Assembly (NCBI GenBank): GCA_025060635.1
Contig: JANXBN010000001.1
Coordinates: forward strand, 629,284-693,283
Length of the DNA: 64,000 bases
DNA from: Candidatus Kryptonium sp.
GTDB taxonomy: Bacteria; Bacteroidota; Ignavibacteria; Kryptoniales; Kryptoniaceae
Direction of reading: 5' to 3'
The notes beneath the pieces are model-generated. The model ran no database searches. It was not told the DNA's origin and saw nothing but the letters and a program-made list of their open reading frames with translations. Positions 6,026 through 34,594 of the stretch are shown piece after piece; the stretch's first letter is position 1, and each line of letters starts with the position of its first letter. A program made the position numbers and the translations under genes.

Positions 6026-6334
6026 CTATTTTGATGCACATAGATAAACGACGGGCTCATCACCTTCAACTTTTGCCCAGTGTACTGTTCCAGCAGGAAG
6101 ATCAAGCCGATCACCGGGACCTAGGACGAATTCCTCATTTCCAACCCCATATCTCATTTTACCACTCACGACCCATCTAATCTCATCAAATGGATGAGAA
6201 TGATTTCCGTAATATGTCCCGGGTTCATCAGTCCAGATATGAGGGCGCGTTCCCTCCGAGATAAGTATTTTTTCAAGTTCTTCAACTGTCGGTTTATTTT
6301 GTTTGTCCCATCTTGTTATCTTCATAGCAAGCAT
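6026..6334 (-). CDS. Small cupin-fold protein
   Basis: A ~102-residue single-domain cupin. The first motif is HSHPFDEIRWVVSG, with His, His and Glu in the HxHxxxE metal-ligand spacing. The second is GPGDRLDLPAGTVHW, with the fourth His. The protein is therefore probably a small metal-binding beta-barrel; the substrate cannot be told. The ATG at 6334 is chosen because it lies just after the stop of the upstream gene, while the longer frame would overlap that gene. ATG at 6325 (MKITRW) is an alternative. It is the last gene of the 9940-6026 minus-strand operon and is tail-to-tail with csrA. Confidence 0.82.
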   Translation of the reverse strand: MLAMKITRWDKQNKPTVEELEKILISEGTRPHIWTDEPGTYYGNHSHPFDEIRWVVSGKMRYGVGNEEFVLGPGDRLDLPAGTVHWAKVEGDEPVVYLCASK

Positions 6335-6341
6335 CGTTATT

Positions 6342-7055
6342 TTATTTCTTTTCTTTAGGGGGTGCAATTTTTAGTTTGAGATCATTGATCTTTCTTTCAA
6401 TTTTATAGTTTAAAGTTTCATCTTTTGATGCTAAAAGTATTTTGTTAAGCTCAGAAATCGCTTCTCCGTAAAGTTGAAGTTTTTCAAGGGATGACGCGAC
6501 TATGATTCTTAGTTCAATGTTATCTTTTAATTCATCAAACTTTGACATCAAATTCTTTGCCCTTATTGCTGCGGTTTCGTAGAACCCATTTTCAAACAAA
6601 GCCCTAACCCCGCTAACCCAAAAATCTATCAGGTTCCATCCAGATTTTAATTTTATTCCACCCTTTTCCATACCTGTTCCATAAACGCCAGTTGATCTTG
6701 CATTTTGTTTTTCTTTTTGTGTGTTTGGGACAGATTTAATTTCTTCAAAGGCGAGCTGAAGCAAAAGTTCCTCTTTAGTTAAGCGTCTTAAATCAATAAT
6801 GTTTATAATTATGCCACCACTTGACTTAAAGTATGTTTTATTATTTCCATCAATTTCAACATAACCATTTTTATCAAGTAATATCGTATCCCCAGGGCGA
6901 AGAGTGTCGCCAAGTGAAAGTTTATCCCATTGTTCTTTTAGCCCATGTCTTACTCGTGCTTCGCCATATAATTTTTTTACTTTGTAGATTTGATTCTCAT
7001 CGGAAGCTGAGATTGAGAAAAATAACAATGTTAAAATTAAAACTTTCAATATCAT
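6342..7055 (-). CDS. Exported FecR-domain protein with TPR-like C-terminus
   Basis: 237 residues. A signal peptide (MILKVLILTLLFFSISA) is followed by a FecR-type beta domain: YGEARVRHGLKEQWDKLSLGDTL and RPGDTILLDKNGYVEI, the pattern of periplasmic FecR domains outside sigma/anti-sigma pairs. Residues ~140-225 are helical with TPR-like spacing (GFYETAAIRAKNLMSKF, LYGEAISELNKILLAS). It probably acts as a periplasmic scaffold or assembly protein. It starts 15 bases after the barrel-transglutaminase gene and ends close to the cupin start, so it is operonic. No anti-sigma role is suggested, since no sigma gene is nearby. Confidence 0.75.
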   Translation of the reverse strand: MILKVLILTLLFFSISASDENQIYKVKKLYGEARVRHGLKEQWDKLSLGDTLRPGDTILLDKNGYVEIDGNNKTYFKSSGGIIINIIDLRRLTKEELLLQLAFEEIKSVPNTQKEKQNARSTGVYGTGMEKGGIKLKSGWNLIDFWVSGVRALFENGFYETAAIRAKNLMSKFDELKDNIELRIIVASSLEKLQLYGEAISELNKILLASKDETLNYKIERKINDLKLKIAPPKEKK

Positions 7056-7070
7056 TTCCAGAACCCGAAT

Positions 7071-9050
7071 TTAATTTTGAATATGGATAATCCTTGCTTT
7101 TCCCCTTGCATGTCCAAGATTAAGCTCAAAATCGTTAAAAAATTGTTCGGCTCCGATTTCCCAAGCTTTATCAAATCCATTGCGAACAAGGGTTGTCTCA
7201 ACAGGTATCCAAATAGTTTCAATTCCGTTTTTATTTTTCATAACGATGTACTTTTTCTCGTTATCTGTTAAATTAACTGCATACTTCTTCTCAATTCCTG
7301 AATCAAATAGAAGATACACATGAGATTCATTCGTTTTCCTCATTGCTTTTACATCAACAAAAGCAACATCAATCCCAGCTGAACCAAGCATTGAAGCATA
7401 AAGAACAACGAGATCATCACAATCGCCCCCGTGGAGTTTCAAAGTTTCACCTGGATACTGAACTCTATCAACACTTACACTTGGATCATTTACATAAGTT
7501 ATAATTTTTGAAAGTTCATCAAATATAAACTTTGCCTGATAAAATTTTCTAAAAATTGGATCTACTTTTTCAAGTGTATCTTTTCGCTCCCAAATTATTC
7601 TTCTCGTCAGTGATAAGATTTCTGGTTCATCAAATCTTAAGAAAAATTTCAAATCTTCAACATTTCCGTTCCAGTCATTTTTACCGCGAAGGGTAATTTT
7701 AACTCTTTTTATCTCATCAGGCATATTTATATGTGATTTAACGCTAAAGGTAATAAAGGACTTGGTTCGCTCCTTTATCTCTGGTTTCCCGAGTCCAATT
7801 GAGGTAAGAATGGGGATCTTTTTTATCTCATGTGGTTTTAGATGAATCTCTTCTGGGTCAGCTTCAACGGTAACGAAATGAGAATTAACCTCAATTTTTG
7901 CGTTCACAGTTTTATCGGAGATATTTTCAATTTCAAGATATCCAATTTTTTTCTTCTCTAACTCATCAAGTAAATGCGGGAAAATTTCGTCCTGAATTGT
8001 TACGCTTTTGATGCGCAGTGTTTTTTCATGCCACTGGCTCATATCTATTGAAACGGAAAATAGCAGTCTATCTCTTATAAATTTATTAAATTCAATATCG
8101 CGAAGAGGCGAAGCAAATATTTCTTCTTGCGTTAATTTACCATCGCTCCATATTGGGGATGTATTTTTAAAGTAGGCAATGTCAAGTTGCAGTGGCCCGA
8201 TTCTAAATCCAACTCCGGATGAAATAGCATTTAAAGTTCCTTTTTCTAAAAAAACTCCAGATCTTAAAAATAAATTTCTAACGGCTTCAATCTCAACTCC
8301 CGATGAAACAGCACCGATAGAGGAAATTTCAAAGCCCACTTTGAAATTTTTTAAATTAATCCCTGCGGAAATTTTAGCCCTATATTTGCTTTGGATTTCA
8401 AGATTTTTAAACTTGTCTGGGAATCCACGATCAAATTTTGAAGATAAATTTTCAATCAAAAAAGCAAATGAAATTTGTGGAGTTGGTTCGTAAAGCATGG
8501 AAACCTTTGAATTTAAAAAAGAAGATTTATAATGCTCTGTTGCAATACCGACAAATGGGAGAGAATCGGTGAATTGAACTTTGTAAACGGTTTCTGATAA
8601 ACTTTGCGATATGAATTGGGTTGATAAACCAACTGAGATTTTATCTAAAGGTTTAAAAGCATACATCAGGGCATAATTTAATGAATAAGTTATCTTTTGC
8701 TGGGATTCGGCTTTTATAATTGAATTTCCTGTGTTTATTGATAGGGTTGATGGAAAAATTAATTCAAGAACAGCACCCGGTGAATAAATGAAACCTATAC
8801 TATGTAAATGGTTCAATCGTTTTGCTATACCAAGCGAGTACATTTTAATTCCTGAATAGTTTGAATAATAACCTGTTAATCCAATGTTCCAATCGTAAAT
8901 CCTTATTAAACCCGCTGGATTTAGCAATGATGATAATACAGAATTTACAAATGGCGAAAATCCAGCGGTCGCAGTTGCTTGCGATGATGTAAAGTTCTGT
9001 GCCACAGCCAGATTGAGCGCTGTGAAAAATAAAATAAGGCGCAGTTTCAT
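7071..9050 (-). CDS. Outer-membrane PorV-like barrel fused to a transglutaminase-like domain
   Basis: 659 residues. The signal peptide ends near MKLRLILFFTALNLAVA. Residues ~25-330 resemble the PorV/UPF0164 type of outer-membrane barrel: an early SSLLNPAGLIRIYDWNIG segment, then alternating amphipathic strands. Residues ~340-470 look like beta-sandwich modules. Residues ~490-659 contain a transglutaminase/papain-like core with LHGGDCDDL (Cys544), NESHVYLLFD (His577) and WIPVETT (Glu618, where the family usually has Asp). A membrane barrel joined to a catalytic thiol domain is unusual. It overlaps the upstream lipoprotein by four bases and precedes the FecR-like gene. Activity and substrate are unknown; protein cross-linking or peptide cleavage at the surface are possibilities. 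Confidence 0.72.
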   Translation of the reverse strand: MKLRLILFFTALNLAVAQNFTSSQATATAGFSPFVNSVLSSLLNPAGLIRIYDWNIGLTGYYSNYSGIKMYSLGIAKRLNHLHSIGFIYSPGAVLELIFPSTLSINTGNSIIKAESQQKITYSLNYALMYAFKPLDKISVGLSTQFISQSLSETVYKVQFTDSLPFVGIATEHYKSSFLNSKVSMLYEPTPQISFAFLIENLSSKFDRGFPDKFKNLEIQSKYRAKISAGINLKNFKVGFEISSIGAVSSGVEIEAVRNLFLRSGVFLEKGTLNAISSGVGFRIGPLQLDIAYFKNTSPIWSDGKLTQEEIFASPLRDIEFNKFIRDRLLFSVSIDMSQWHEKTLRIKSVTIQDEIFPHLLDELEKKKIGYLEIENISDKTVNAKIEVNSHFVTVEADPEEIHLKPHEIKKIPILTSIGLGKPEIKERTKSFITFSVKSHINMPDEIKRVKITLRGKNDWNGNVEDLKFFLRFDEPEILSLTRRIIWERKDTLEKVDPIFRKFYQAKFIFDELSKIITYVNDPSVSVDRVQYPGETLKLHGGDCDDLVVLYASMLGSAGIDVAFVDVKAMRKTNESHVYLLFDSGIEKKYAVNLTDNEKKYIVMKNKNGIETIWIPVETTLVRNGFDKAWEIGAEQFFNDFELNLGHARGKARIIHIQN

Positions 9051-9940
9051 CTGAACTTGACTTTAAAATAAAGTGTTGAGGATGTAAAACTCATTATATT
9101 CTCGGGAAATCCTGGAATGTTTATATTTCTTTTACGCCCTTGAACTATGCTGAATATGAGATAGCTCTGTCTGTATTCGTTTGGTATAAGATTTACGATG
9201 CTTGAATCAATTTTAATTTTTTGAGTGAATAAGTTTTTGAACTTCAAAATCATTATCGGTTTTATAATAGATTCATTTTCCTGATATAATGGCACACTTA
9301 CGATGATATCCAGGGAATCGGCTCTTGATTTAAGCTTAAGTTTCAAACCTTTCCCAGCATGCTCCGGTAAACCTTCAAGTTCCTTTTTATCAGGTGTTTC
9401 AAGTTCAAAGACTCGTTCTGAGCCTGATTTATCAATGATTTTAAATCTGTGTTTTGCGGAATGTTTAAAATTAAAGTTGACCATCTTAAGTTTGTATTCA
9501 ATACCATAACTTGTGTCCATCCAACCATGATAATGTGAAGGTGTTCTTATTTTTCTTATTGATTTTTCAAGTTTTGTGTTTTCAACATAAATGTCTCCAA
9601 TGTCAAGACCTCTTCTTTCACGCCAGCGTCCCATGTTTATGGGTGGTGAGTTTATATCGCGAAAGAGAGCATATGCGAAAGTTGTGTCATATTTATTTCC
9701 AAGGTCATCTATAAATTGGGAGTAGCTTAACATAATTAAACTGGGTGGACGCATAGTCTCAGAAGTTAAAAGACCTGTTTGCGCTGGATTTAAAAACTCA
9801 ACGATTGATTCTGTTTCGTCAAGATATACAACTTCAACTTTAAAGTTTTCTTCCTCGGGCGGTGTTATTATTATAGAATCCTTTCCACATCCGAACAAGA
9901 CAATTAGAGAAACTATGTAATGAAATGGAAATTTTTTCAT
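9047..9940 (-). CDS. Lipoprotein of unknown function
   Basis: 297 residues. A type II signal peptide ends in the lipobox VLFGCG, so the mature protein is a lipid-anchored envelope protein. The remainder is rich in beta strands and polar residues (for example YHGWMDTSYGIEYKLKMVNF). I recognise no family. It is the first gene of the minus-strand operon that continues into the barrel-transglutaminase protein, with which it overlaps by four bases. It may therefore be a partner or substrate of that protein, but this is inferred from position only. Confidence 0.7.
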   Translation of the reverse strand: MKKFPFHYIVSLIVLFGCGKDSIIITPPEEENFKVEVVYLDETESIVEFLNPAQTGLLTSETMRPPSLIMLSYSQFIDDLGNKYDTTFAYALFRDINSPPINMGRWRERRGLDIGDIYVENTKLEKSIRKIRTPSHYHGWMDTSYGIEYKLKMVNFNFKHSAKHRFKIIDKSGSERVFELETPDKKELEGLPEHAGKGLKLKLKSRADSLDIIVSVPLYQENESIIKPIMILKFKNLFTQKIKIDSSIVNLIPNEYRQSYLIFSIVQGRKRNINIPGFPENIMSFTSSTLYFKVKFR

Positions 9941-9989: not shown

Positions 9990-10022
9990 AAAAAAGTGCA
10001 AAGCCCAGCTTAAGCTGAGCTT
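9990..10022 (-). terminator. Rho-independent terminator after the 10050-10838 lipoprotein gene
   Basis: Read on the minus strand, AAGCTCAGC and GCTGGGCTT form a 9-bp stem (one G-T pair) around a TTAA loop (10001-10022). It is followed after four bases by a run of six T (9990-9995). It lies ~28 bases past the stop codon of the lipoprotein gene and 50 bases before the next minus-strand gene, so it should separate the two transcription units. Confidence 0.85.
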
Positions 10023-10049
10023 CACACCGATAAGCTGCGCCCTCAGCGC

Positions 10050-10838
10050 TCAATCTGGTTTGCCATCTCTATTTCTATCCTTGCCACCTCGCGATTTGCT
10101 TTTTAATGAGTGAACAATGTTTGCTATTATCTTGCCGTGGTTGCCAGGGTCGCTTGGATCAAGGATTCTTCCTGTAAATGGATCAATAAACCATGAAGTT
10201 AAATCAAAAATAAGAACATACGGTATATTTCTGTCGGTTTCCGTAATTGTGAAATTACCTTTAATTTTGAACTCTATATTAACTTTGCCAGTTGTGAAGA
10301 TAAAATCTTTCCAAGCACCACTTTGATAAATTTTCCCTTTAACATAAATACTCTTTCCAAGGAATGAGTCGGGTATTGCAGGATTTACTTGTAAATCATA
10401 TGGAACAATTGCGTGCACTTTAAATTTTATACCATTATAGTTCCCTGGTGGTAAACTATCAATACCAATCGGTGTTGGCTCGTTGTTTCGCAATCTTACA
10501 AAAAATGGTCCTTTAAATCTTATAGTTGGGTCATTATCAATTCGTCTCATTTTCTCGCGAAGTCTATTCATATCTTGATCATCCCAGAGAGAATCTTCCT
10601 TAACAGTATCAATGTTTTGTTTAAATTGTATCCAACGAAGGACAATTATGGCAAAGTCAATCTTGATTGAATCAACCTGCTCAAATCCCTTAGCAAAAGT
10701 TATAGCGCCTGTTGTTTCTCCTTTTAGAGTAAGTTCAACTGGGACGGAACTTGTTGCTGATGGTTCAGTTCCTTTTGTGCAGCCATTGATTGAAATTGCG
10801 AAGATAATCAAGGTAAGGGTAAATAATTTTTTCAACAT
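10050..10838 (-). CDS. Lipoprotein, DUF4382-like
   Basis: 262 residues with a lipoprotein signal peptide (MLKKLFTLTLIIFAISINGC, Cys at the lipobox). The body resembles surface lipoproteins of the DUF4382 type: a GAITFAKGFEQVDSIKID strand region, then LPPGNYNGIKFKV, a phrase typical of that family, and later beta strands. The C-terminal tail ends in a calcium-loop-like DRNRDGKPD. The ATG at 10838 is chosen over an upstream in-frame TTG (10850) because it begins directly at the basic signal-peptide start. It lies downstream of the CHASE2 sigma54 activator on the same strand, with a possible sigma54 promoter between them. Specific function unknown. Confidence 0.72.
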   Translation of the reverse strand: MLKKLFTLTLIIFAISINGCTKGTEPSATSSVPVELTLKGETTGAITFAKGFEQVDSIKIDFAIIVLRWIQFKQNIDTVKEDSLWDDQDMNRLREKMRRIDNDPTIRFKGPFFVRLRNNEPTPIGIDSLPPGNYNGIKFKVHAIVPYDLQVNPAIPDSFLGKSIYVKGKIYQSGAWKDFIFTTGKVNIEFKIKGNFTITETDRNIPYVLIFDLTSWFIDPFTGRILDPSDPGNHGKIIANIVHSLKSKSRGGKDRNRDGKPD

Positions 10839-10883: not shown

Positions 10884-10899
10884 AACAATTAATATGCCA
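10884..10899 (-). promoter_or_regulatory. Candidate sigma54 promoter (-24/-12) for the 10050-10838 lipoprotein gene
   Basis: On the minus strand the sequence is TGGCATATTAATTGTT. It matches the sigma54 pattern TGGCAC-N5-TTGC at TGGCA and TTG, with correct spacing, but has GT in place of GC at -12. It lies ~46 bases upstream of the lipoprotein start and just downstream of a sigma54 activator gene. Match quality is moderate and chance occurrence in AT-rich DNA is possible. Confidence 0.35.
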
Positions 10900-10981
10900 G
10901 TTGCACAATAGAGCAAACTGATTATTTTTCAATTACTATTTCAGAATCTAAATGCTTGGTTTGATTTTGAATTTGCTGGGT

Positions 10982-13630
10982 TTAAAAATTCCCATCATTT
11001 ATCCCCAATTTCTCAGTGGTGATTTCCCCCTTTTTAAATCTCATAGCGAATTCCTCAAGATAAAAATGGTATCTGGCAGGTAAGTTTTTGTATTTTAACC
11101 TAATTATAGATCTAATTTCCTCTTCTGATTTACAGTTGGCTATGTTTTCAATAAAGTTATGTATATAATCAGCGATTTTCTTTTTAAGTCTTTCTAATGC
11201 CTCGGGGTCATTTCCGGTGATTTTTAATGATGCTTTATTTATGTCAAATTTGGATTCATATAAATTCTTGAAGCAGAGTCCGCGAAGGTATTCTCCAACA
11301 GTTCCTCTGTTTAGTCCAAGTTCATTTGCGGTTTCGGAGATAGAGCTGTGAGAAAATTTTTTCTCGCGAAGCAATGTTAAAATTTCTTCTTCTATATCTA
11401 TTTTACCTTTTGCTGACTTTGCAATTTCCTCTGGTAGATCTTTAAGTTGAATTAATTTTCTTCCTTCAGATTTTGCAAATATAATTGCTCTTTTTACTGC
11501 ATTTTCAAGTTGTCTTACATTTCCTGGCCATTCGTAATTTAAAAACGCAATCATTACAGCTGAGGAAAACTTCATATCATTTGCTTTAAATTTTTTTAAA
11601 AAATGTTCAGCGAGGAATCTTATGTCTTCCTTTCTCTCGCGTAGCGGAGGAATATGAATTCTTACAACATTTAATCTGTAGTAAAGATCTTCTCTGAAGT
11701 TTCCTTCTCTTAGTGCTTTTTCAATATCGCGATTTGTTGCTGCAATAATTCTAACATTAACCTTTAAAGTTTCAACTCCACCGATCCTATTAAATTCCCC
11801 GGATTGAATGATTCTTAGGATCTTTGCTTGAAATGATTCGGTTGTTTCAGCGATTTCGTCTAAAAATATCGTTCCACCGTCAGCTATTTCAAATAAACCT
11901 TTTTTTCTTTGAACTGCCCCTGTAAAAGCTCCCTTTTCGTGCCCGAAAAGTTCACTTTCAAGTAGTGTTTCTGGAATGGCAGAGCAATTTATAGTGATAA
12001 ATTTTTTATCTTTTCGTTCGCTCAACTTATGTATCGCCATTGCTACAAGCTCTTTTCCAACGCCGTTTTCTCCAGTTATCAAAACTGGAACATCTGATGG
12101 AGCAACTTTTTTGATAATTGAAATTATTTCTTCCATTTTTCCACCTTTTGAAAAAACTATCCCCTCAAATTCATCCTTCTCTGTTTCGTCAGTGAGGTTG
12201 AATTCAGATAAATCTTCAAATTTTGATGTTAATTCTTTCATTTCGCTATAAGTTTTTTCAAGATTCTTAATAGCCTCATTGCGTTCAGCAGCGATTTTCA
12301 AATTTTCAATTTGTTCTTGCAGATCAATTATTTTTAACTCCTTCTCTTTGATCATATCCTCAATTTTCCTTTTCTCTTCATTAAATTTGATCATTTTTTG
12401 TCGTTCAATTTCAAAGTTATAAATGACACCTGCGAACAACGAGAATAATCCCGCAAAAATGGGATAAATAGGAACCGAAATGCCAAGTTTAAATAAGAAA
12501 AGCAAAACAAGCAATAAAGCAGAAATTACAGCGGATTGAAATAGCAAAATTCTGAAAACAGTTGAGATATGTTCAAGTGAAAGCAGATGTAATATCAATA
12601 AGGAGAAAAGCAAAGATATGGCAAAATTTAAAATCAGAGTGGTTTCAGTTAAAAATTTTTTCTGAACAATTGTATTAAGCGCCATAATATGAAGTCCGGT
12701 GGTTGGAAATTTATCTTGGAATGGAGTTTTTATAGTTTGTCCAAGTGCTTCGCTGTAAATGCCAATGAATACAATTTTATCTTTAAAATTATCCAAATCA
12801 ATTTCAGGTTCAATTCCAGATTTGATCGCGTCGTAAGATTTTATGAAATCAAGAATTGAATACATTTTTAAAGCATCTGTCCCACCAGTGTAATTTATCA
12901 ACATTGTTCCGTTTTTTAGAGGTATCTTAACATCGCCAAGGATGATTGAACTTTCAAAAACTTTTATTGAATCCCGAGGAATGCCGTAATATGTCCGTGC
13001 GAGCTCGAGAGAGATAGAAGGCAAATATAAATCTTGAGCAACTTGAACAAGCAAGGGGATTTCATAACGAGAATCATTTTGAATATAATTTAAGTGTCCT
13101 AATCCTGCACAGCTCTTAAGAAGCTCATCAAATGGAAGTCGGAAATTTGTACCTTTGTGGAAATTTAAGCTTTGAACATTAGACTTTATCAAAAATTTTT
13201 TAAGTGATTCTGGGAAATGAATCTCATTGTGGTTTGATCTCTCAAGGTTTGTAAAACTCCCACCAAGATAAACTCTATTTGAATTTTTCACAATCAATAC
13301 AAGAAGGTTGTCCCTCTCAGGATAATCTGGGTTTTTATCAGTTAGCAATATATCAAGCATGATCGCCTTGACATTTAATTGAGTAAGTAGGTCGATTAAG
13401 AGTGCATAGTATGTTCTTTTCAGTGGATAGCCGCCAAGCGAATGAATTGCATTATCATCAATGTAGAGAAATACGAGCGAGGTATCAACATGTTGTTGCC
13501 CACGAAATTTAAATTTCAATTCGTTAAAAAATGAATCCAAAGTATCAAATATCGGGATCCTCATAAGCTCAATTGTGAGAGTCATTAAAGAAACCGATAA
13601 TGCGATAATGAGTTTATGTTTGGCTTTCAT
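10982..13630 (-). CDS. Membrane-bound sigma54 activator with extracytoplasmic CHASE2 domain
   Basis: 882 residues. An N-terminal membrane helix (~7-23) leads to a large extracytoplasmic CHASE2 sensor (~30-320; FLYIDDNAIHSLGGYPLKR, later NFKDKIVFIGIYSEALGQ). Three membrane helices follow (~332-352, 360-382, 386-405), then a coiled coil (~408-475). A sigma54 AAA+ domain (~490-720) has Walker A GENGVGKE (520-527), the sigma54-contacting GAFTGA loop (567-572) and Walker B GGTIFLDEI. The C-terminus carries an HTH-like segment (ISETANELGLNRGTVGEY) and ~90 further residues. CHASE2 usually sits on histidine kinases, cyclases or serine/threonine kinases, so this is a one-piece transmembrane sensor-activator. 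The signal is unknown. Confidence 0.88.
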   Translation of the reverse strand: MKAKHKLIIALSVSLMTLTIELMRIPIFDTLDSFFNELKFKFRGQQHVDTSLVFLYIDDNAIHSLGGYPLKRTYYALLIDLLTQLNVKAIMLDILLTDKNPDYPERDNLLVLIVKNSNRVYLGGSFTNLERSNHNEIHFPESLKKFLIKSNVQSLNFHKGTNFRLPFDELLKSCAGLGHLNYIQNDSRYEIPLLVQVAQDLYLPSISLELARTYYGIPRDSIKVFESSIILGDVKIPLKNGTMLINYTGGTDALKMYSILDFIKSYDAIKSGIEPEIDLDNFKDKIVFIGIYSEALGQTIKTPFQDKFPTTGLHIMALNTIVQKKFLTETTLILNFAISLLFSLLILHLLSLEHISTVFRILLFQSAVISALLLVLLFLFKLGISVPIYPIFAGLFSLFAGVIYNFEIERQKMIKFNEEKRKIEDMIKEKELKIIDLQEQIENLKIAAERNEAIKNLEKTYSEMKELTSKFEDLSEFNLTDETEKDEFEGIVFSKGGKMEEIISIIKKVAPSDVPVLITGENGVGKELVAMAIHKLSERKDKKFITINCSAIPETLLESELFGHEKGAFTGAVQRKKGLFEIADGGTIFLDEIAETTESFQAKILRIIQSGEFNRIGGVETLKVNVRIIAATNRDIEKALREGNFREDLYYRLNVVRIHIPPLRERKEDIRFLAEHFLKKFKANDMKFSSAVMIAFLNYEWPGNVRQLENAVKRAIIFAKSEGRKLIQLKDLPEEIAKSAKGKIDIEEEILTLLREKKFSHSSISETANELGLNRGTVGEYLRGLCFKNLYESKFDINKASLKITGNDPEALERLKKKIADYIHNFIENIANCKSEEEIRSIIRLKYKNLPARYHFYLEEFAMRFKKGEITTEKLGINDGNF

Positions 13631-15808: not shown

Positions 15809-16581
15809 AAATTACAATTTTTGGAAGCGCGTCTGGAATACCTGAGAAGGGCAGAGTTCATACTTGTATTGGAGTTGAAGTTAAAGAAAAAATGATTTTG
15901 CTTGATATTGGCGAAGGCGCTGTCTCATCAATCGCTGGTGATGGAATTAATGTTGATAAAATTGAAAAGGTTTTTATTTCACACATGCACGCTGATCATT
16001 TCATAGGATTGCCGATGTTACTTCAGTATTTGAAATTGAAAGAAAGAAAAAAATCACTTGAGATTTATCTTCCGGAAAAACACATTGAAGCGGTTGAAAA
16101 GTTTTTGCCATTTTTATACATTTTCAGAGAAAGGTTTGAGTTTGAATATAAATTTTTACCTTTGCCAGCTAAAGAATTTTTTGTATTTGATAATTTGAAA
16201 ATGAAAATGCTTCCAACGAAACATTTGCAAAAATATGAGAAATATGCGAATCTTTACGGTGTTGAGACGACTTCTTATAGTTATTTAATTGAGGAGATCG
16301 CAAGTGATGGTGTTGATGTTAAAAGGTTTCTTTTTTCCTCTGATTTGAATTCAGCGGATGAAATTAAACCTTATCTTGATGGGCTTGATCTTTTGTTAAT
16401 TGAATGTTCTCACATTGAAATTGAAGAAATAATTGACACGCTGTCTGATTTTTATATTCCAAAGATTGTTTTGACTCATGTTTCCCCTGATAAAGATATA
16501 AGACCGATGGTTGAATATGCGAGGGCAAAGTTTGACATGAACATAGATCTCGCTTACGACGGAATGAAAATTGAAGTATAA
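15805..16581 (+). CDS. MBL-fold metallohydrolase, RNase Z-like
   Basis: 258 residues with the metallo-beta-lactamase core: ISHMHADHFIGLP supplies His60, His62, Asp64 and His65, and later metal ligands lie in FSSDLN and the LTHVSPD segment. The HxHxDHxxGLP wording is that of the RNase Z/ElaC branch, but the clear exosite of tRNase Z is not recognisable. It could be tRNA 3'-processing RNase Z or a related phosphodiesterase. It overlaps the SPOR gene by four bases in the envelope/tRNA-modification run. Confidence 0.75.
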   Translation: MKITIFGSASGIPEKGRVHTCIGVEVKEKMILLDIGEGAVSSIAGDGINVDKIEKVFISHMHADHFIGLPMLLQYLKLKERKKSLEIYLPEKHIEAVEKFLPFLYIFRERFEFEYKFLPLPAKEFFVFDNLKMKMLPTKHLQKYEKYANLYGVETTSYSYLIEEIASDGVDVKRFLFSSDLNSADEIKPYLDGLDLLLIECSHIEIEEIIDTLSDFYIPKIVLTHVSPDKDIRPMVEYARAKFDMNIDLAYDGMKIEV

Positions 16582-16588
16582 TTTGCAA

Positions 16589-17776
16589 ATGGTTTTACTT
16601 ACAGATGACGAAAAAAGGATGGATATTCAGGAAAAATATGGGATTTATGGCGAATCCCAAGCGATAAAGGAAATAGTTGCGGTTATAAAGCAAGTTGCAC
16701 CGACTGATATAACTGTTTTGATCACTGGTGAAAGCGGTGTTGGCAAAGAGCTTGTAGCGCGGGCGATCCATGGGGAAAGCAAAAGAGCCAATGGTCCGTT
16801 TGTTATTGTCAATTCTGGGGCGATACCAGAAGGAATACTTGAATCTGAATTATTTGGGCATGAGAAAGGAGCATTCACGGGGGCTATTGAAACGAGAAAA
16901 GGATATTTTGAAATGGCAGATGGTGGAACGATCTTTCTTGATGAAATTGGGGATATGCCGATTTCAACTCAAGTGAAAATTTTGAGGGTTATTGAAATAG
17001 GCGAATTTATGAGGGTTGGCTCATCTCAATTAAGAAAAGTTGATGTGAGAGTTATAGCAGCAACGAATAAGAATCTTGAGGAGGAAGTGAAGCGCGGAAA
17101 CTTTAGGGAAGACCTTTATTATCGCTTGAGAAGTGTTAACATTTATATTCCGCCACTTCGCGATAGAAGGGAAGATATACCTATTTTGTTTGAGAAGTTC
17201 GTCGCCCAGTTCTGCGAAAAAAATAAAGTTGCTTTTTCAGGGATAACGGACGATGCGATGCAGGTTTTGATTAGTTATCATTGGCCTGGAAATGTTCGTG
17301 AGTTGAAAAATTTTGTTGAAAGCATCCTTGTGCTTGAAAGTGGTAAAATTATTGACGCTGGAATGGTGCGTAAATACCTCAAATATGACTTTGCTCAATT
17401 TGATTACACGCGAAATCTTCCAATAAAGTATGGAAAACCTGGAGAACAAGCCGATAGGGAACTGATTTATAGAGCTTTGATTGATATGAAAAATGATTTA
17501 ATTGAAATAAAAAATTTGCTCGGTAATCTTGCTGATTTCATAGCTAGACAAATTGCTTCGCCACTTGCCTTGCCTGAAGCAAAGGTTGATTTAAAAACTG
17601 GGACTGTCGTTGAGAATTATTCACTTATTGACATGGAGAAAAGGATGATAAAAGCTGCTCTTGATAGATTTAACTGGAATAAACGTCTTGCTGCAAAGGC
17701 TTTGCAGATAAGCGAGAGAACACTCTATAGAAAAATAAAGGAATATGGACTTGAGGAGGAAAGGGAGAAAAAATAA
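16589..17776 (+). CDS. Sigma54-dependent transcriptional activator without sensory domain
   Basis: 395 residues. A ~20-residue N-terminus leads directly into a sigma54 AAA+ domain: Walker A GESGVGKE near 47-54, GHEKGAFTGA with the sigma54-contact loop, Walker B GGTIFLDEI, and the sensor region WPGNVREL. After a linker (~275-345), a Fis-type HTH ends the protein (RLAAKALQISERTLYRKIKEY). There is no receiver, GAF or PAS domain, so activity must be controlled by level or by a partner, as with PspF. The ATG at 16589 is chosen over an upstream TTG at 16571. The 3' end overlaps lptE by 32 bases, linking it to outer-membrane assembly. Confidence 0.9.
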   Translation: MVLLTDDEKRMDIQEKYGIYGESQAIKEIVAVIKQVAPTDITVLITGESGVGKELVARAIHGESKRANGPFVIVNSGAIPEGILESELFGHEKGAFTGAIETRKGYFEMADGGTIFLDEIGDMPISTQVKILRVIEIGEFMRVGSSQLRKVDVRVIAATNKNLEEEVKRGNFREDLYYRLRSVNIYIPPLRDRREDIPILFEKFVAQFCEKNKVAFSGITDDAMQVLISYHWPGNVRELKNFVESILVLESGKIIDAGMVRKYLKYDFAQFDYTRNLPIKYGKPGEQADRELIYRALIDMKNDLIEIKNLLGNLADFIARQIASPLALPEAKVDLKTGTVVENYSLIDMEKRMIKAALDRFNWNKRLAAKALQISERTLYRKIKEYGLEEEREKK

Positions 17777-18281
17777 TTTTCACATCTTAAATGGATTTGT
17801 TATATTTGCAATTGTATTTTTGAGCTATGGATGTAGGTATTCATTTACCGGTGCATCTGTGCCACCGCATTTGAAAACTATAGCTATACCCGTGTTTGAC
17901 GATCAAAGTGGCTATGGCAGGGCGACTTTGAGGGAAGAATTAACAAATAAAATAGTTGAAAGATTTATCCAAGATAACACCTTAAAAATCGCTGATAAAA
18001 GCACAGCAAATTCAATTCTTGAAGGAATTATAATAAGTGTTCAAGATAATCCAGTTGTCGTCGGAACCGGTGAAAGAGTTGTGAAATCAAGGATAACGAT
18101 AACTGTTAAAGTGACTTATTACGATATGGTCAAGCGTGTTAAGGTTTGGGAAAGGACATTTTCAAATTGGGGCGAGTATGAGCTTACAGGAAATATACAG
18201 TTAAATTTACAACAAGGAATTCAGCAAGCGATAGAAAAACTTTCTGAGGATATCTTGCTTGCAACCGTAGCAAATTGGTAA
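17745..18281 (+). CDS. lptE: LPS-assembly lipoprotein LptE
   Basis: 178 residues. An extended basic N-terminus and hydrophobic stretch end in the lipobox LSYGC. The mature protein begins YSFTGASVPPHLKTIAIPVFDDQSGYG, the pattern of the Bacteroidota/Chlorobiota LptE (LptE_2) family. LptE forms the plug of the LptD barrel that inserts lipopolysaccharide into the outer leaflet. The start codon lies 32 bases inside the preceding activator gene; no later Met is available before the lipobox, so the overlap seems genuine. The stop is followed closely by the GT2 gene. Confidence 0.85.
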   Translation: MDLRRKGRKNNFHILNGFVIFAIVFLSYGCRYSFTGASVPPHLKTIAIPVFDDQSGYGRATLREELTNKIVERFIQDNTLKIADKSTANSILEGIIISVQDNPVVVGTGERVVKSRITITVKVTYYDMVKRVKVWERTFSNWGEYELTGNIQLNLQQGIQQAIEKLSEDILLATVANW

Positions 18282-33200: not shown

Positions 33201-33242
33201 ACTGCAAGACCACAACCACAAATTGCATCACCAACAAATTAA
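30228..33242 (+). CDS. Two-domain amidohydrolase-family protein, first domain lacking metal ligands
   Basis: 1004 residues with a signal peptide (MRKILLLLLILFPILIAA), so exported. Two consecutive amidohydrolase (imidazolonepropionase-like) units are seen. In the first, the strand that should carry HxH reads PGFIDLYTSYG, and later His/Lys positions are also lost (VVFESADE, FAFTTYR). In the second, PGIIDAHSHTAISGG keeps HxH (His639, His641), and VHAHSYRQDE and SFNSDSDE supply further ligands. Only the second is likely catalytic. Both units end in a beta-sandwich-like segment with EPGKxAxFxI. The ATG at 30228 is chosen over the one at 30213 because it begins the signal peptide and has GGAG at good spacing. 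Substrate unknown; peptides or cyclic amides are typical. Confidence 0.82.
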   Translation: MRKILLLLLILFPILIAAQEQTKPIEGLRDNPPKVFALTNAKIVQAPGKVIEKGTLIIRNGLIESVGANVKIPPDAQIVDLSGKVIYPGFIDLYTSYGMPRRRESAQMEGQQPGAQQVQETKKGADSWNPNVLSHKLAVDEFSPDQRDAERLRSQGFTVVLSVPNDGIFRGKSVLVTLADGKAPNDVVIKPVVAHHIAFIRGFGRDIYPNSLMGNIALIRQTFLDAQWYASAWDAFSKNPALPKPEVNSSLEALLGALKGEKVVFESADELDFLRCAKIAKEFSLNTFIIGSGYEYRRVEAIKNTGFPVVIPVNFPKPPDVENPDDADNIDLRTLKHWYNAPENPKRLYENGVTFAFTTYRLENPSEFLQRVRESVERGLPEDVALSALTITPARIIGLDKILGTVEPGKMANFIITDKNIFDEDARILQVWISGEKYDVEGLPEFDPRGEWKAQLNNDTLNLSITGQLKNLRGRVKKGDKSVNLIRVNLFDNNLTIAFNGDSLGIKGIVRISAFVKKDRIEGYAEISIGERALFKAIKISEPKDEAPRRTRKVKFEPLPVVYPDGAFGLSKIPEQPEYVLIKNATIWTSSNLGKLENADMLIRRGIIERIGKNIQPPKGAVVIDATGKHVTPGIIDAHSHTAISGGVNESTQAITAEVRIQDVINSDDINIYRQLAGGVTTVNLLHGSANPIGGQNAVIKYRWGSLPDELIFKEAPPGIKFALGENVKQSNWGDRYTTRYPQTRMGVEQIIRDAFKAAIDYEKAWNTYREESKRRVLIPPRRDLQLEALLEILKGQRLVHAHSYRQDEILMLLKVAEDFGFRIATLQHVLEGYKIAEAIAKHGAGASSFSDWWAYKFEVYDAIPHNGALMEKVGVVTSFNSDSDELARRLNLEAAKAIKYGGLTEEQALNLVTINPAKQLKIDKYVGSLEPGKHADFVIWSGNPLSTYTICEQTWIEGRKYFDRNEDLKMREEAKRLRNFIIQKIIEVKTTARPQPQIASPTN

Positions 33243-33256
33243 TGAGGAGACTGAAG

Positions 33257-34594
33257 ATGAAGATAAAATCAGTTTTACTTTGGATTTTAACATTTGTGCT
33301 CGTTTCAAATTTAATTGCATCCGACATAATCCCAGGCAAGCCACAAAACAAACCAATTGCCCTCGTTGGAGGGACAATACACACGATCACAAGTGGAACA
33401 ATTGAAAACGGTGTAGTTTTATTTGACAAAGGCAAAATCGTTGCTGTTGGAAAAAATGTTAATATTCCAAGGGATGCTGAAGTGATTGACATAACCGGGA
33501 AACATGTTTATCCTGGATTGATCAATGCTTTTACCACGATTGGATTGGTAGAGATCGGAGCGGTGAGAGCAACCCGTGATGTCACTGAAGTTGGTCTTGT
33601 AAATCCAAATGTGCGTGCAGAAATCGCTTTTAATCCTGATAGTGAACATCCACCCGTGACGCGAGCAAATGGCATAACGCTTGCCCTTGTTGTGCCAACT
33701 GGTGAACTCATCGCTGGTCAATCGGCCCTAATGATGCTTGATGGATGGACTTGGGAAGAAATGACGCTAAAAGCACCTGTTGGACTTCATATTTATTGGC
33801 CAAGGATGACTCAACCCTCTGGGCCTGGATTCGCACCCGCAAGGCGAAGCCCTGAGGAATTAAGAAGAGAAGTGGAAAAACGACTTCAATTAATTCGGGA
33901 AACATTTCAAAAAGCAAGGGCATATAAAAAAGCAAAAGAAGCAGAAAAACAACAAAAAGACATCCCATATCACGATACCGATTTAAAATATGAAGCAATG
34001 ATACCAGTGCTTGAAGGGAAAGTGCCAGTTTTTGTTCATGCAAATTCATCAAAGGAAATTTTATCGGCTATTGAATGGGCTGAAAGCGAAGGTGTAAAAA
34101 TTGTTATCGTTGGTGGAAACGATTCTTGGAAAGTCGCTGATGTTTTAAAAGCAAAAAATGTCCCCGTGATCTTGACAAATATCCATAGATTGCCCTCGGG
34201 AAGAGATGTTGAATATGATGAACCGTTTACAGTCGCATATAAACTTTACAAAGCTGGTGTTAAGTTCTGTATTGGCGGAGAAGGTGGATATTACAATGAA
34301 AGAAACCTCCCTTATCAAGCGGCGACATGTGTGGCGTTTGGACTTCCAAGAGAAGAAGCATTAAAAGCTATAACGATTTACCCTGCCGAAATCCTCGGCG
34401 TAGCTGACAAAGTAGGCTCAATTGAACCTGGAAAAGACGCAACACTTATTGTTACAACAGGTGATCCTCTTGAAATACCAACGCAAGTGGTTTATGAATT
34501 CATCCAAGGTAAAAAAGTTGACCTATCAAACCGACAAACAAAACTTTACGAAAAATATCTTGAAAAATATCGTCGGCTTGGATTATTGAAGTGA
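33257..34594 (+). CDS. Amidohydrolase-fold protein lacking the HxH metal motif
   Basis: 445 residues with an N-terminal signal peptide (MKIKSVLLWILTFVLVSNLIAS). The fold is that of the preceding protein: a composite beta start (IALVGGTIHTITSGTIENG), PGLINAFTTIG where HxH is expected, a central helical linker (RKARAYKKAKEAEKQQK-like), FVHANSSKEI, and the final SIEPGKDATLIVTTGDPLEIP. Loss of both His suggests a non-catalytic partner or a changed metal site. The start ATG at 33257 has GAGGAG seven bases upstream (33244-33249), better than the overlapping ATG at 33242. It probably arose by duplication and acts with its neighbour. Confidence 0.8.
   Translation: MKIKSVLLWILTFVLVSNLIASDIIPGKPQNKPIALVGGTIHTITSGTIENGVVLFDKGKIVAVGKNVNIPRDAEVIDITGKHVYPGLINAFTTIGLVEIGAVRATRDVTEVGLVNPNVRAEIAFNPDSEHPPVTRANGITLALVVPTGELIAGQSALMMLDGWTWEEMTLKAPVGLHIYWPRMTQPSGPGFAPARRSPEELRREVEKRLQLIRETFQKARAYKKAKEAEKQQKDIPYHDTDLKYEAMIPVLEGKVPVFVHANSSKEILSAIEWAESEGVKIVIVGGNDSWKVADVLKAKNVPVILTNIHRLPSGRDVEYDEPFTVAYKLYKAGVKFCIGGEGGYYNERNLPYQAATCVAFGLPREEALKAITIYPAEILGVADKVGSIEPGKDATLIVTTGDPLEIPTQVVYEFIQGKKVDLSNRQTKLYEKYLEKYRRLGLLK

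Follow-up and report, generated by a model that had tools for sequence, protein, structure and literature searches.

A putative trans-envelope signalling operon with a barrel-tethered, LapG-like thiol domain and CHASE2-sigma-54 output in Candidatus Kryptonia

Background

Why should an outer-membrane barrel carry a thiol enzyme-like domain at its end? The question is raised by a gene at 7071-9050 (minus strand) in a 64,000-nucleotide stretch (the window) of contig JANXBN010000001.1, part of the 2.5 Mb draft genome of a hot-spring bacterium of Candidatus Kryptonia, whose relatives include Kryptonium thompsonii, Chrysopegis and Thermokryptus. An earlier sequence-only reading, made without database searches, described the 659-residue product as a PorV-like barrel fused to a transglutaminase-like domain, encoded in an operon with a lipoprotein and a FecR-domain/TPR protein, and suggested an undescribed surface system that cross-links, anchors or cleaves proteins at the outer membrane. 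Computational follow-up indicates that the genes probably form a signalling operon. The fuller statement, a trans-envelope signalling operon with a barrel-tethered LapG-like protease and a CHASE2-sigma-54 output, is evenly balanced between support and doubt.

Results and discussion

The operon and its conservation

Rechecking of coordinates confirmed three open reading frames (ORFs) at 6342-7055, 7071-9050 and 9047-9940, all on the minus strand. The three genes were as the sequence-only reading had placed them, but it had missed the start of the operon, which runs in the order CHASE2-sigma-54 activator, lipoprotein 1, lipoprotein 2, barrel-Ig-thiol protein and FecR/retention-like TPR protein. 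The gene order was compared in 80 named loci plus relatives, as that reading had proposed, and it recurs in Ignavibacteria and partly in KSB1, where the protein is shorter and its small barrel is of a different kind. The FecR-like gene follows the barrel gene in 77 of the 79 loci with room for it, lipoprotein 2 precedes the barrel gene in 60/76 (profile match), and a CHASE2 gene lies upstream in 38/60 and anywhere in the locus in 42/60.

The association with CHASE2 extends beyond this architecture. Of 54 Ig-thiol genes across Bacteroidota, 41 have a CHASE2 gene no more than 8 kb away, where about 0.5 would be expected; the binomial p-value for this proximity ignores shared ancestry and is not exact. 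These CHASE2-adjacent genes encode barrel proteins accompanied by sigma-54 activators and also barrel-less proteins of 800-1700 aa, for which both CHASE2 partners examined (two) carry cyclase domains. The stable pairing is thus that of Ig-thiol domain and CHASE2 receptor, while the barrel and the output domain vary. The Kryptonia genome itself has three CHASE2 genes, two of which adjoin its two Ig-thiol genes.

Its other Ig-thiol protein (locus L020, 4440-6992) has 850 aa, a C-terminal TPR region and no recognised barrel, and is followed directly by a CHASE2-cyclase gene (L020, 2190-4361). At the third CHASE2 locus (L111, 3039-9220; G000:C1, about 372000-378200) genes for a 358-aa secreted protein, a FecR protein, a 794-aa barrel-like protein and a CHASE2-cyclase stand in a row. 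This FecR gene is the one true FecR gene of the genome, and the locus is a candidate for another outer-membrane-to-CHASE2 relay.

A barrel, an Ig-like domain and a thiol domain in one chain

An AlphaFold2 model of the 659-aa protein, built with 70 homologues, reached a mean predicted local distance difference test score (pLDDT) of 87.9 and a whole-chain predicted template modelling score (pTM) of 0.57, so that the relative placement of the barrel, Ig and thiol domains is not reliable. Residues 16-340 (8031-9005, minus strand) are confidently predicted as a FadL/PorV-type barrel, with fold matches at Z 26.6 to FadL and 25.1 to PorV of the type IX secretion system (T9SS) over 270-277 residues; the top matches are FadL, TodX and TbuX. 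NCBIfam PorV_fam matches the barrel at E 1.3e-8, below its cut-off. That the barrel is T9SS PorV itself was rejected; the protein scores 19.4 bits against the PorV equivalog profile NF033710, far under the cut-off of 250. The Ig-like domain that follows (residues 343-456; 7683-8024, minus strand) has its best fold matches in domain III of HAP2 (Z about 11). No relative came up when the PDB was searched by sequence with the 659-aa chain as single query.

The remainder of the chain (residues 457-659; 7074-7682, minus strand) is a transglutaminase-like domain. Folded alone, it reached pLDDT 92.3 and pTM 0.90 and matches the transglutaminase, PNGase and LapG folds. Three residues follow the transglutaminase order: Cys544 is at the N-terminal end of a helix, His577 lies on a strand, and Glu618 comes after the strand that follows (codons 7419-7421, 7320-7322 and 7197-7199, minus strand). 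Among homologues, the most distant of which share about 22% identity, Cys544 and His577 are each present in 70/70 and Glu618 in 69/70, far from chance; the single exception, at locus L059, has an aberrant C-terminus. Both the fusion and the Cys-His-Glu order proposed from sequence are therefore borne out, the structure prediction having returned a barrel and a C-terminal transglutaminase-like fold with Cys and His placed in order. The core fold and the Cys-His-Asp/Glu order make the domain a member of the transglutaminase-like superfamily (PF01841). Pfam PF01841 matches 56/56 thiol domains, with the window's own member just under the gathering score (20.8 vs 23 bits).

Acidic residues surround the cysteine. 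Asp543 and Asp546 are present in 70/70 homologues and Asp545 in 69/70, and by sequence these putative Ca2+ ligands flank the catalytic Cys as in LapG/Peptidase_C93 proteins. In DvhG, D316 and E318, which flank C317, are Ca2+-binding acidic residues (PMC13090378), and LapG has a calcium site adjacent to its active site (PMC4359373). A domain-profile search of solved structures also placed LapG closest (4u65, E 2e-4; 4fgo, E 7e-3). The family profiles are less clear: Peptidase_C93 gives E 0.15 for the window's domain and matches weakly in 3/56 domains, and NCBIfam LapG does not match the window's domain and matches weakly in 20/56, at best with E 3.4e-4. The domain is best read as a LapG-like thiol protease, probably dependent on Ca2+, and we infer that its chemistry is proteolysis. 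Weak matches to the NCBIfam family 'anti-phage protein ProA' were also seen in 33/56 thiol domains (best E 3.3e-5).

Both termini of FadL/PorV-type barrels lie in the periplasm. The thiol domain should therefore face this compartment, where it would be tethered by the barrel on the periplasmic side of the outer membrane. With the C-terminus expected there, and with the protease LapG as nearest solved relative, the earlier suggestions of cross-linking or anchoring at the surface lose ground, and cleavage is the best of the three activities proposed.

The activator and its DNA switch

The first gene (10982-13630, minus strand) encodes an 882-aa protein with Pfam matches to CHASE2 (E 6e-34) and Sigma54_activat (E 2e-70). 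Hydropathy places transmembrane helices at residues 7-25, about 332-350, 361-379 and 388-406; CHASE2 lies between membrane helices, as in CHASE2 receptors, and is predicted to be periplasmic. The cytoplasmic AAA+ domain has a Walker A motif (GENGVGKE) and an intact sigma-54 contact loop (GAFTGA), and is followed by a C-terminal helix-turn-helix-like region. As the genome also encodes sigma-54 (rpoN), the protein has the features of a sigma-54 enhancer-binding protein, to which a cognate enhancer and a -24/-12 promoter can be added by sequence alone.

The enhancer-like element is a tandem repeat, CCCAGCA-N14-CCAAGCA (10953-10980, minus strand), whose boxes at 10980-10974 and 10959-10953 start 21 bp apart, directly after the activator stop codon. 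The same tandem ([CT]C[CA][ACG]GCA with a period of 21-22 bp) was found upstream of the promoter in 36/66 loci, against 0.02 expected by shuffling and 0.03 from the rest of the same loci; a narrower first pattern had matched 6/66, and the widened pattern gave the 36/66. In Kryptonia it begins just after the activator stop. It is present as a single copy in the 2.5 Mb genome, and so the activator appears to be dedicated to its own operon. A search for dyads upstream of the promoter revealed no clearly shared inverted repeat.

The sigma-54 -24/-12 type promoter, CTGGCATATTAATTGTT (10884-10900, minus strand), lies upstream of lipoprotein 1. Its motif, YTGGCAYN5TTGN, occurs between activator and lipoprotein 1 in 36/68 loci (duplicate genomes removed), against about 0.6 expected from shuffles, and on the opposite strand in 0/68; in a comparable locus set it occurs in 34/66 vs 0.55 expected in shuffles. 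Enhancer-to-promoter distances cluster about every 10.9 bp and are thus roughly helically phased (p 0.03, unique distances). Promoter and contact loop go together. Where the activator has an intact GAFTGA the promoter was present in 28/31 loci, whereas with GAFTNA or GAFTDA (in a clade of mostly Melioribacteraceae, for example L082, L095 and L108) it was present in 1/10, the tandem repeat being kept in 7/10. It looks as if dependence on sigma-54 was lost while the DNA site was retained. As these altered activators are confined to one clade, they do not represent many independent events.

Two other matches in the window should be mentioned. A perfect TGGCA-N6-TTGC at 33670-33684 (plus strand) lies inside a 450-aa ORF (33242-34594) and is probably due to chance. 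Another sigma-54 activator (16571-17776; 401 aa) has an intact GAFTGA and no CHASE2, and adjoins a small lipoprotein-like ORF at 17745-18281.

The lipoproteins and the FecR/retention-like partner

Lipoprotein 1 (about 10050-10838, minus strand; lipobox INGC) was placed from the ORF list and locus comparison; the list starts it at a TTG (10850), and the ATG at 10838 is likelier. It is of a Kryptonia type, and a different lipoprotein family takes the same position in other groups. An intrinsic terminator-like hairpin (9995-10028, minus strand; 15 pairs and a T tail) separates it from lipoprotein 2, and a comparable hairpin is found there in 30/55 loci, which suggests that lipoprotein 1 may be made in excess. 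Lipoprotein 2 (9047-9940, minus strand; lipobox LFGC), recognised by a profile match upstream of the barrel gene across loci, overlaps the barrel gene by four bases (ATGA). The overlap had been noted from sequence, and a like one occurs in about two dozen related loci.

The last gene of the operon (6342-7055, minus strand) encodes a secreted protein of 237 aa, with a beta module (residues 22-90), a conserved helix (92-108), a variable linker and TPR-like helices (145-230), the helices being assigned from sequence pattern and not from a structure model. The motif T-x-[VLI]-[HY]-G at 122-126 is conserved as well, its Gly present in 49/50 members. FecR domains, too, finish with a short conserved strand that contains a Gly. 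Of the earlier description of this gene, its place in the operon and its FecR-like and TPR character held, but it was rejected as a Pfam-type FecR protein since 0/50 family members match PF04773 at E 0.01; aligned to a true FecR by hhalign, the partner gave a weak match (probability 36%). Its N-terminal module is instead matched weakly by the NCBIfam LapA retention module NF033682 in 37/50 members (E 0.1 or better, best 1.7e-6), with matches that fall below its curated cut-off.

In substrates of the LapG family a retention domain is combined with a targeting helix and a [T/A/P]AAG site (PMC13090378). The partner shares with LapG and DvhG substrates the order of beta module, helix and short Gly-ending motif (PMC13090378), a parallel that is suggestive only. 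A LapG-like TAAG-type site was found in just 3/50 members, inside or before the beta module, and is not conserved. No LapA-type adhesin was found when the genome was searched with the retention module (no match at E 0.001). That the partner is the substrate of the thiol domain is a tentative and somewhat doubtful proposal.

A small cupin protein is encoded directly 3' of the FecR-like gene (6026-6340), and is kept in several Kryptonia and not in more distant relatives.

A model and its alternatives

The conserved partners of the barrel protein, namely a membrane-embedded CHASE2-sigma-54 activator, an enhancer and a promoter, point to signalling. We infer a signal that runs inwards from the outer membrane. 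A cue there would cause the thiol domain to cleave or grip the FecR/retention-like partner (or a lipoprotein), and the cleavage product or complex would be read by the periplasmic CHASE2, switching the activator on. The inner-membrane CHASE2-sigma-54 protein would be receptor and activator in one component. Its cytoplasmic part would bind the tandem enhancer, which lies immediately 3' of the activator gene, and activate the -24/-12 promoter. Transcription from there would cover lipoprotein 1 and, by leakage through the terminator, also the genes for lipoprotein 2, the barrel-Ig-thiol protein and the FecR/retention-like protein. Possible, though doubtful in this full form, is a so far unknown class of outer-membrane-to-promoter relay. 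In it a barrel-tethered LapG-like protease would process a retention-module-like periplasmic partner, and a membrane-embedded CHASE2 receptor would read the result and itself switch on sigma-54 transcription of a single dedicated operon, with neither phosphotransfer nor a second messenger in between; with cyclase outputs, the same core of Ig-protease and CHASE2 would be re-used.

Several points weigh against the model. The terminator between the lipoproteins makes the link from promoter to protease gene depend on read-through. The enhancer pattern was counted in the very data in which it had first been noticed by eye, and at the -12 element, TTGN, just 5/36 have the usual C. Ignavibacteriaceae often have no adjacent activator, enhancer or promoter, and related genomes are not independent samples. 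For the partner, members inspected singly score 14-19 bits against the NF033682 cut-off of 50, and an ordinary FecR protein also weakly matches the retention module (E 0.056), so that part of the partner's match is shared general resemblance. Lastly, the thiol domain is by fold equally near PNGase, transglutaminase 3 and putative Bacteroidota proteases, and protease chemistry is not settled because the fold score to LapG (Z 8.5) is no better than those to PNGase and transglutaminase 3.

This similarity of scores is what favours the alternative that survives best, in which the operon signals as proposed and the thiol domain is a binding scaffold or has other thiol chemistry (amidase or transglutaminase); transglutaminase-like domains of ciliary proteins are also among the fold matches. 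However, Cys, His and Glu are invariant and the flanking acidic residues are as in LapG, and we consider this alternative unlikely. Surface maturation would require a single-chain counterpart of T9SS PorU-PorV, with a thiol transpeptidase carried on the PorV-like barrel to anchor or cross-link either secreted proteins or both lipoproteins. The barrel type, the presence of the T9SS translocon SprA in the genome and the two lipoproteins in the operon would suit such a role, but four things make it improbable: a barrel of this kind has its C-terminus in the periplasm, the small barrel of the KSB1 relatives is of another type, paralogues without a barrel are still associated with CHASE2, and by sequence the closest relative is a protease. 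Equally improbable is uptake of hydrophobic compounds through a FadL/TodX-like channel, its periplasmic domain and partners informing the activator of the substrate and the thiol domain being accessory, as this would fit the best barrel matches (FadL, TodX and TbuX) but not the invariant triad, the channel type that is not conserved in KSB1 or a conserved neighbourhood in which no degradation genes were recognised.

The signalling operon thus proposed is a defined and widespread set of parts, comprising candidate enzyme, candidate substrate, receptor, enhancer and promoter. It makes trans-envelope signalling by CHASE2, a domain whose sensed cue is not known, testable.

Comparison with known systems

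The closest parallels in mechanism are the LapG-LapA-LapD and DvhG-DvhA-DvhD systems of adhesin release (PMC4359373, PMC13090378). These likewise combine an inner-membrane regulator with a transglutaminase-like thiol protease of the periplasm, whose Cys has acidic neighbours, and with a partner in which a retention-like module rich in beta structure is accompanied by a helix and a short motif ending in Gly. In contrast to them, the protease-like domain here is fused to an outer-membrane barrel, the partner is a small TPR protein and not a giant adhesin, the regulator is a CHASE2-sigma-54 protein in which no cyclic di-GMP domain was seen, and the triad has Glu in place of Asp. With T9SS PorV and the FadL family only the barrel fold is shared, since Ig and thiol domains are fused to it here and the gene neighbourhood is different.

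An outer-membrane barrel has been connected with CHASE2 before. Among the papers found, Sinorhizobium NsrA is the only system in which such a barrel communicates with CHASE2, being required for signal perception by the inner-membrane CHASE2 cyclases CyaK, CyaD1 and CyaD2; unlike in this operon, the output is cyclic AMP and not sigma-54, and a thiol protease is not reported in the available text of these papers (PMC7529298, PMC13001267). CHASE2 sensors are also encoded with a FecR-domain protein and a TPR protein in Campylobacterota (PMC9239204) and with a FecR-domain protein in a Burkholderia biofilm operon (PMC5192318), but there the output is an adenylate cyclase or histidine kinase and a barrel-thiol protein is lacking.

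The system is probably undescribed, as the sequence-only reading had suggested: the literature search found no paper on CHASE2 together with such a transglutaminase-like protein and none containing both CHASE2 and RpoN. It is therefore a variant of trans-envelope signalling by CHASE2 and FecR in which two elements, the tethering of a LapG-like domain to a barrel and the direct output through sigma-54, were not found described. The operon suggests that in Ignavibacteria, Kryptonia and KSB1 there may be a transcriptional relative of Lap-type periplasmic proteolysis.

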